Shown: positions 60,300 through 61,008 of the stretch, piece by piece
How positions within the stretch are numbered: the first letter of the stretch is position 1
How the letters are laid out: the number at the start of each line of letters is the position of its first letter
Source of the DNA: Shinella lacus
GTDB taxonomy: Bacteria > Pseudomonadota > Alphaproteobacteria > Rhizobiales > Rhizobiaceae
Assembly (NCBI RefSeq): GCF_010994755.1
Contig: NZ_WHSB02000006.1
Location: 1 to 64,000, forward strand
Length of the DNA stretch: 64,000 nt
Direction: 5' to 3'
The notes under the pieces: model-generated
What the model was told of the DNA's origin: nothing
The model's input: only the letters and a program-made list of their open reading frames with translations
Database searches by the model: none
Position numbers and translations under genes: made by a program

Positions 60300-60322
60300 A
60301 CCCATGCGCGATCTGCATGGGT
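60300..60322. other. Hairpin in the leader of the DUF1127 gene
   Basis: ACCCATGC and GCATGGGT are a perfect 8-bp inverted repeat spaced by 7 bases, in the 178-bp gap between the aminotransferase stop and the DUF1127 ATG. No T-run follows, so it is more likely a structured leader or regulator site than a terminator. A TATAAA box at 60364-60369 could be part of the promoter. Confidence 0.45.
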
Positions 60323-60436
60323 GGCTTGCCAGCTTAGCGCTGTTCCGCAGTGCAGCATAAGCCTATAAAGGGGCCATCGAAAGACGCGGCGCCACGGACC
60401 GGTGCCGAACAGAGAGCCTAACGAAAGGGGATCATC

Positions 60437-60583
60437 ATGAACATGGCACGTTCCTTCAACAATTGGCGCAAGTACCGTCAGACCGTAACCGAACTCGACC
60501 GCATGACTGCCCGCGAACTGCGCGATCTCGGCATCGAGCGCTCGGAAATCAAGGCAGTCGCCCGCGCTGCCGTCGGCTTCTGA
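60437..60583 (+). CDS. DUF1127 small protein
   Basis: 48-residue basic protein (NNWRKYRQTVTELDRMT then ARELRDLGIERSEI). DUF1127 proteins, such as CcaF1 of Rhodobacter, bind RNA and affect RNA turnover and stress. AAAGGGG precedes the ATG and a strong terminator follows 33 bp after the stop. Immediately downstream on the same strand are four hairpins with CCTCCTCCC loops, the same order as the ccaF1-CcsR locus. Confidence 0.9.
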   Translation: MNMARSFNNWRKYRQTVTELDRMTARELRDLGIERSEIKAVARAAVGF

Positions 60584-60615
60584 TAAACACGCCGAAAAAT
60601 AGCAGAATTTCGAAG

Positions 60616-60640
60616 ACGCTCGCCTCCGGCGGGCGTTTTT
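60616..60640 (+). terminator. Terminator after the DUF1127 gene
   Basis: ACGCTCGCC and GGCGGGCGT form a 9-bp stem (one G.T pair) with a 3-base loop, followed by TTTT. It would end the DUF1127 mRNA, with readthrough possible into the small-RNA array. Confidence 0.85.
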
Positions 60641-60769
60641 GCATCTGCGAAGGTGGTGCCTGCGTGGGGATAATTCAACCCAGTTGAGGTACCCGTTAAG
60701 CGCATAGCGCATAGCTGCCTTGCAAAACAATGCCTATCAATTGAGCAAGAATCGCGTATAGTCATACTT

Positions 60770-60805
60770 ATCGAAGCAACGTACCTCCTCCCACGAAGCT
60801 TCGAT
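60770..60805 (+). ncRNA. Cuckoo/CcsR-like small RNA hairpin 1
   Basis: ATCGAAGC (60770-60777) pairs with GCTTCGAT (60798-60805); an inner CGT/ACG pair narrows the loop, leaving ACCTCCTCCC exposed (CCTCCTCCC at 60784-60792). A weak TTGAGC (60741-60746) and CATACT promoter would start transcription about here. The CCUCCUCCC loop is the defining feature of the cuckoo RNA family. Confidence 0.75.
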
Positions 60806-60808
60806 GTT

Positions 60809-60843
60809 GCAGAAGGCCCACTCCTCCTCCCAGGGCCAACTGC
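60809..60843 (+). ncRNA. Cuckoo/CcsR-like small RNA hairpin 2
   Basis: GCAG and CTGC form the base, an AA/AA internal loop follows, then GGCCC (60815-60819) pairs with GGGCC (60833-60837). The 13-base loop carries CCTCCTCCC at 60823-60831. Confidence 0.75.
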
Positions 60844-60845
60844 GG

Positions 60846-60878
60846 GAATGGCGACACTCCTCCTCCCAGTCGTCATTC
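60846..60878 (+). ncRNA. Cuckoo/CcsR-like small RNA hairpin 3
   Basis: GAATGGCGAC (60846-60855) pairs over 10 bp, with one G.U pair, with GTCGTCATTC (60869-60878). The 13-base loop ACTCCTCCTCCCA is the same as in hairpin 2, while the stems differ in sequence, so the loop is what selection has kept. Confidence 0.78.
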
Positions 60879-60889
60879 GGTTCTATCGG

Positions 60890-60923
60890 AAAGCCTGCCG
60901 CACCTCCTCCCGCGGCAGGCTTT
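60890..60923 (+). ncRNA. Cuckoo/CcsR-like small RNA hairpin 4 with terminator
   Basis: AAAGCCTGCCGC (60890-60901) pairs perfectly over 12 bp with GCGGCAGGCTTT (60912-60923); loop ACCTCCTCCC. The T-rich tail after it makes this hairpin double as the transcript's terminator, a natural 3' end for the array. Nothing further is seen to 61008. Confidence 0.8.
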
Positions 60924-61008
60924 TCCAATTCTGGACCATGTTTTTCCCAAAATATTGAAATCGCTGACGCAATTGGCATGCCGGCAAGCCGCGTGCCGCA
61001 CATTCTTG

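Follow-up and report, generated by a model that had tools for sequence, protein, structure and literature searches.

A four-hairpin RNA array of the cuckoo/alpha-r14 type and its DUF1127 neighbour carry matching predicted LsrB-type promoters

Introduction

The small RNA SmelA099 of S. meliloti, for which a transcript length of 160 nt has been given (PMC2873474), is described as a four-hairpin RNA with CCUCCUCCC in its loops, a sequence identified as the anti-Shine-Dalgarno sequence, and a single family uniting the forms with three and with four hairpins was proposed in 2011 (PMC3927594). NfeR1, the founding alpha-r14 RNA, is reported to act on mRNAs by means of its anti-Shine-Dalgarno motifs (PMC10746234, PMC8844928). 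The same RNA requires LsrB, an oxidative-stress-responsive LysR-type activator described as indispensable for it, and its box has been given as TGCA-N6-GCAT, from -72 to -57 (PMC10746234).

The LsrB/VtlR box has been formulated as GCAT-N3-TG-N3-T (PMC7486931, PMC8844928). In S. meliloti, LsrB binds PabcR1, where the box is located at -61 to -49, and AbcR2 of the same species does not depend on LsrB (PMC8844928). VtlR directly activates atu1667, which is orthologous to VtlR target genes of Brucella (PMC7486931); atu1667 has been described as DUF1127, VtlR controls DUF1127 genes in Brucella, and the Brucella VtlR motif has been given as CAATGCAGCCATGCA (PMC12595884). We noticed that CAATGCAGCCATGCA holds GCAT-N3-TG-N3-T on the opposite strand. 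It has been called a puzzle whether the targets of DUF1127 proteins are RNAs or other proteins, with CcaF1 being RNA binding and a DUF1127 protein of Agrobacterium interacting with the sensor kinase PhoR (PMC12501420).

DUF1127 genes were already known to occur in association with RNAs of the cuckoo type. In the ccaF1-CcsR1-4 locus of R. sphaeroides (CIN1 locus), the RNA array is described as the 3' UTR of the DUF1127 mRNA, with one RpoHI/RpoHII promoter and a precursor cut by RNase E. Here, we analyze a DUF1127 gene and an array of four hairpins located in a 64-kb stretch of DNA, the whole of which is referred to as the window.

Results

Four hairpins share one loop motif. The motif CCTCCTCCC occurs four times in the window, on the plus strand only and at the four loops listed in Table 1, compared to a mean of 0.80 occurrences per window expected by chance; four or more occurrences anywhere in the window were obtained in 1 of 100 shuffles. 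The region from 60760 to 60935 folds into four separate hairpins, with CCTCCTCCC unpaired in every loop (-69.4 kcal/mol; z, -5.77; 0 of 200 shuffles), and the hairpins folded one by one gave z values of -5.36, -2.35, -4.56, and -6.79 for hairpins 1 to 4, hairpin 2 being the weakest of them, since its folding was equaled by 5 of 200 shuffles. Hairpin 4 is GC rich and has TTTT within its 3' arm, and it is the probable terminator of the array small RNA. A preliminary description, made from the letters of the window, had placed here four plus-strand hairpins with motif loops, the last of which ends in a T-rich stretch; the four hairpins are present at 60769 to 60925, with coordinates that differ by a few bases at most, and they form with the motif unpaired in each.

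A protein-coding reading of the array was rejected, given that the loop spacing shifts by single bases among relatives (e.g., 36 to 40 nt). As a separate observation, five arrays (L084, L080, L110, L121, and L178) contain an extra CCT unit in one loop, where the motif starts are 3 nt apart, as if the loop repeat were slipping by whole triplets.

TABLE 1 Features of the DUF1127-array locus, with positions in the window
Feature	Position	Strand	Details
Aminotransferase gene	Upstream flank	+	Profile searches
Dyad ACCCATGC-N7-GCATGGGT	60300-60322	+	Perfect; right half overlaps box GCATGGGTGGCTT
Predicted LsrB/VtlR box GCATGGGTGGCTT, DUF1127 gene	60315-60327	+	Exact GCAT-N3-TG-N3-T
Predicted -10 TATAAA, DUF1127 gene	60364-60369	+	Position between box and ATCGAA
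Predicted start, DUF1127 gene	A60376	+	ATCGAA; inferred
DUF1127 gene	60437-60583	+	48 aa, arginine rich; Pfam PF06568, E 1.4e-15, 57.1 bits
Terminator-like hairpin	60611-60641	+	GC rich; -21.3 kcal/mol, z -4.92; 3' arm into TTTTT (60636-60640)
Predicted LsrB/VtlR box GCATAGCTGCCTT, array	60709-60721	+	Exact GCAT-N3-TG-N3-T
Predicted -10 TATAGT, array	60757-60762	+	Consensus GTATNNT there across loci listed
Predicted start, array	A60770	+	ATCGAA
Hairpin 1	60769-60806	+	Loop CCTCCTCCC 60784-60792; two-sided changes in 2 of 8 pairs
Match to RF02344 (ar14)	60803-60927	+	Covariance model, hairpins 2-4
Hairpin 2	60807-60845	+	Loop motif 60823-60831; two-sided changes in 10 of 10 pairs
Hairpin 3	60846-60878	+	Loop motif 60859-60867; two-sided changes in 8 of 9 pairs
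Hairpin 4	60888-60925	+	Loop motif 60903-60911; two-sided changes in 4 of 13 pairs, 8 invariant
ParA/VirC1-like ATPase gene	Downstream flank	-	Profile searches

Family assignment and covariation of the stems. The Rfam covariance model RF02344 (ar14) covers hairpins 2 to 4 with 103.3 bits, against a gathering score of 58.8 (E, 5.7e-18), and the cuckoo-family membership proposed in the preliminary description is borne out by this match above the cut-off, together with the four motif-loop hairpins. The joined family of three- and four-hairpin forms is the one that we take to be the cuckoo family. At an E value of ≤0.001, the genome to which the window belongs contains four ar14 matches, of which one is in the window, a tandem pair is on contig C13, and the fourth is on contig C15; at the same threshold, 45 of 61 genomes have an ar14 match, and 37 of 61 have one above the family cut-off. 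Several Shinella species are represented among the matches listed for contigs carrying hairpin 1 of the locus.

At least 120 named loci were found by means of a hairpin 1 pattern that includes ATCGAA, and the conservation of ATCGAA and of the 5' stem of hairpin 1 in those loci is thus by construction. Four exact loops were present in 89 of 120 loci among the matches listed; thinning by similarity and complete ends yielded 39 loci, which, with the window, make up an alignment of 40 four-hairpin arrays where loop invariance is likewise by construction, exact loops having been required. Standard pairs occupy 97.0% of the cells in the 40 arrays, compared to at most 50.4% in slid versions, the tested consensus structure having been predicted from the same alignment, which favors it over the slid versions. 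Changes on both sides were found in 24 of the 40 pairs, and 0 of 500 shuffles were as high on any of five measures. In the outer stem of hairpin 1, two-sided changes occur in none of the five pairs, with the 5' side fixed by the search pattern. Among the stems proposed earlier, covariation in the 40 arrays gives strong support to those of hairpins 2 and 3 and moderate support to that of hairpin 4 and, in hairpin 1, to the inner stem. Cuckoo/SmelA099 RNAs are characterized by a row of at least two CCUCCUCCC-loop hairpins, of which there are four here, and by stems that vary while pairing is kept, as the two-sided and paired fractions above indicate. The locus is, as judged from these alignments and folds, a putative four-hairpin cuckoo/alpha-r14 small RNA of the SmelA099 kind.

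The DUF1127 gene and the intervening hairpin. The gene ahead of the array on the same strand had been described as a DUF1127 gene, and the Pfam match (Table 1) agrees with this; a search of the 48-aa protein in NCBIfam returned no family. The terminator that had been noted after this gene corresponds to a terminator-like hairpin of low z score, with the 3' arm running into TTTTT. A simple terminator scan lists this hairpin, but 1.1 such sites are expected by chance, and the listing therefore adds nothing alone. Among the matches listed, 52 of 61 loci (window included) have a similar T-run hairpin between gene and array, against 33 of 305 mononucleotide-shuffled gaps.

Predicted promoters in the window. 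Both units present an exact LsrB/VtlR box located exactly 61 nt ahead of ATCGAA, with a TATA-like -10 between the two elements, so that, relative to the predicted starts, the box occupies at both units the position of about -61 to -49 that characterizes the LsrB/VtlR regulon. The dyad that overlaps the box of the DUF1127 gene would be fitting for a LysR-type T-N11-A site, and the -10 of this gene is largely kept in a 22-locus alignment. The window contains 11 copies of the short box, two of them ahead of the units of this locus, versus 7.74 expected; as many were obtained in 17 of 100 shuffles, and the box therefore means little alone. The composite of box, N46-50, and ATCGAA was found twice, versus 0.01 expected. 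In the whole 7.04-Mb genome, this composite has just three matches, the third of which has spacing one base longer and falls within long open frames, and we consequently rejected the notion that it is a common genome pattern. Since the composite box patterns were composed after inspection of the window, the independent part of these tests is provided by the other genomes and by the starts of the Rfam models.

Other promoter types were considered as well. A plain sigma-70 promoter was rejected, the scan having found no consensus sigma-70 promoter for the array, and so was an RpoH promoter for the DUF1127 gene, as no CTTGAA-like -35 was recognized by eye 16 nt before CCTATAA.

Controls in the same genome. 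A pattern of box, N33-37, and TATA occurs at six places in the 7.04-Mb genome, versus one in a reversed control; four of the six are upstream of DUF1127/ar14 units at two loci, and two are in long open frames. In two of the three ar15 (AbcR) copies (C33:368949 and C50), the box is located exactly 61 nt ahead of the start of the Rfam model. The C33 copies are in tandem beside a LysR-type gene, which, by position and family, looks like lsrB. No box was found at the second tandem copy, as expected if it is AbcR2, described as LsrB independent in S. meliloti (PMC8844928). The C50 copy (L191) can be regarded as an extra AbcR-like copy that is distant from lsrB and has an LsrB-type box of its own at 61 nt.

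A second DUF1127-cuckoo cluster was observed on contig C13 (L050; G000:C13:607121-608385), comprising a pair of ar14 RNAs with three hairpins each and, after them, a pair of DUF1127 genes. In the second ar14 copy of this contig, the box is 61 nt ahead of the model start; the DUF1127 gene that follows immediately, the first of the pair, shows a box at 61 nt as well, here ahead of ATC, with TATATT between. The strict box is absent at the first ar14 copy of C13 (C13:607121) and at the C15 copy, and none was found near the remaining five DUF1127 matches in this genome.

Conservation across relatives. The presence of DUF1127 was evaluated by tblastn with the window protein (E, 1e-3) in the loci with at least 600 nt upstream, which are 109 of 121 (window included, among the matches listed). 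A DUF1127 gene was found upstream of the array in 61 of the 109, again among the matches listed and by a criterion that would miss more divergent genes. Of the 119 loci with enough sequence (window included), 99 have the array box between -63 and -58; in particular, it occurs in 56 of the 61 loci with DUF1127 upstream and in 35 of the 48 where no upstream DUF1127 was detected, all among the matches listed.

On the side of the gene, and among the matches listed, the strict box was found in 46 of 61 DUF1127 promoters (window included), at -121 to -128 from the start of the tblastn match; box plus ATCGAA at 60 to 61 nt was found in 40 of 61 promoters, and the dyad core ATGC-N7-GCAT was found in 52 of 61 related ones. 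Up to 700 nt before the 121 arrays among the matches listed, there are 151 strict plus-strand boxes, of which 100 are at -62 to -60, 49 are at -480 to -425, in the region of the DUF1127 promoter, and 2 are elsewhere. The strict box is absent from 20 of 119 array promoters and from 15 of 61 DUF1127 promoters among the matches listed, several of which carry a sequence that nearly matches it, e.g., GTATAGCTGCACT or GCATGGCCGACCT. Since the loci share descent, these counts are not independent events.

A stricter promoter pattern gave 42 matches in the 21 genomes of the genus (the window's own included), versus none in the reversed control. Twenty of these are located at a four-hairpin array, in 20 of the 21 genomes; 14 are beside an ar14 pair that corresponds by coordinates to the one on C13 (genes checked in the window's genome only), 2 are beside other ar14 matches, and 6 are elsewhere, probably by chance. 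Over 61 genomes, the same pattern gave 68 matches, compared to 3 in the control, and outside the family (24 genomes), it gave 11, compared to 3, which is barely above the control and hardly a signal.

A different arrangement was observed in L058, L059, and L067, from other genera of the family, where five or six CCTCCTCCC loops occur in two groups and the first loop is only 23 to 92 nt past the DUF1127 gene; this arrangement is perhaps closer to the Rhodobacter operon.

Discussion

With a probability that we put at roughly 0.75, the array would be a small RNA of some 160 nt that acts in trans and is activated by LsrB from a promoter of its own, and the DUF1127 gene would be promoted separately, being coregulated and not cotranscribed with it. 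According to this reading, the LysR-type regulator LsrB (VtlR) would bind the array box at -61 to -49 and activate transcription, giving an RNA predicted to extend from 60770 to about 60929. Its loops, with their anti-Shine-Dalgarno sequence, would pair with ribosome-binding sites of mRNAs, and translation would be blocked, as reported for NfeR1. The DUF1127 gene would have a distinct promoter, in which this box recurs with identical spacing, and a terminator of its own; separate promoters sharing a box, together with such a terminator, would imply that gene and array are coregulated side by side. LsrB would then switch on both units in parallel, and the coregulated set may also include the AbcR-type RNAs and the second DUF1127/ar14 cluster of the genome. 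The preliminary description regarded the whole unit as one stress-regulated locus; stress regulation, in response to oxidative or nutrient stress, is plausible, through LsrB rather than RpoH.

The other half of that proposal, a single cotranscribed unit like ccaF1-CcsR1-4, is not supported by the sequence, where a terminator-like hairpin and the array's own conserved predicted promoter are found between the gene and the hairpins. An operon of this type would entail one stress promoter and the cutting of the array from the 3' UTR with RNase E and the DUF1127 protein, as reported for R. sphaeroides. We consider it unlikely, even though gene order and the four units match and, in seven loci belonging to other genera of this family, just 23 to 95 nt separate the DUF1127 stop from the first loop motif, because the gap hairpin recurs in 52 of 61 loci and 35 of the 48 loci without a detected upstream DUF1127 retain the array promoter (both among the matches listed). 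Some read-through of the gap terminator from the DUF1127 gene into the array may occur.

The hairpins could also function chiefly as a sponge, sequestering ribosomes or an RNA-binding protein, and not as a repressor of mRNAs, a role to which we give slightly less credit than to the operon. The anti-Shine-Dalgarno sequence in the loops (PMC3927594) is compatible with it, and several identical modules per RNA would, as we infer, suit titration, but the alpha-r14 RNA NfeR1 is described as acting on mRNAs through those very motifs (PMC10746234, PMC8844928). Finally, the array might be a copy that is silent, or a region where transcription terminates in an unusual way; this is very improbable in view of the compensatory stem changes in the 40-array alignment, of the array promoter conserved in 99 of 119 loci among the matches listed, and of the listing of SmelA099 as a 160-nt transcript (PMC2873474), notwithstanding the terminator-like hairpin 4 and the reliable detection by Northern blotting of just one of six NfeR1-like copies in S. 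meliloti (PMC7143759).

Returning to an LsrB-activated array beside a separately promoted gene, the control of NfeR1 and AbcR1 by LsrB and that of the Brucella DUF1127 genes and atu1667 by VtlR are already known; the separate, matching LsrB-type promoters predicted on the RNA and on the gene appear to be the new part. A partial literature search found no report of matching LsrB promoters on a neighboring DUF1127 gene and cuckoo array, which is a weak sign of novelty. It is possible to hypothesize, tentatively and with somewhat more doubt than belief, that the DUF1127-cuckoo locus of the Rhizobiaceae is a rewired Rhodobacter operon, in which the LysR-type redox regulator LsrB/VtlR would drive the small arginine-rich protein and its possible RNA partners as a module, through two promoters having the same geometry, and would do so at two loci of the genome. 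Should a single regulator control gene and array alike, the association of DUF1127 with cuckoo RNAs becomes a testable regulon, for which exact predicted starts and boxes are given here (Table 1), and LsrB would, if this is true, connect the redox state with DUF1127 proteins and with small RNAs blocking ribosome-binding sites.

Compared to SmelA099 (four hairpins) and SmelA075 (three hairpins) of S. meliloti, which belong to another genus, the array shares consecutive CCUCCUCCC-loop hairpins and variable stems, and its predicted length of about 160 nt is close to the 160 nt given for SmelA099. With alpha-r14 (RF02344; founder, NfeR1/Smr14C2), it has in common the model match over hairpins 2 to 4 and the anti-Shine-Dalgarno loops; however, alpha-r14 has three hairpins, whereas the array has four and a DUF1127 neighbor, and the box of the LsrB-activated NfeR1 is described at -72 to -57 (PMC10746234), different from the -61 to -49 predicted for the array. 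As for the LsrB/VtlR regulon (AbcR1, atu1667, and VrsA, with AbcR2 and three DUF1127 genes in Brucella), its box is common to both units of the locus, the position at -61 is the same as that of AbcR1, and its targets include both DUF1127 genes and small RNAs. Lastly, ccaF1-CcsR1-4 and the locus presented here are alike in having a DUF1127 gene followed by four homologous units, but, different from the one promoter and the processing of the Rhodobacter operon, two predicted LsrB-box promoters are found here, with a terminator-like hairpin between them.
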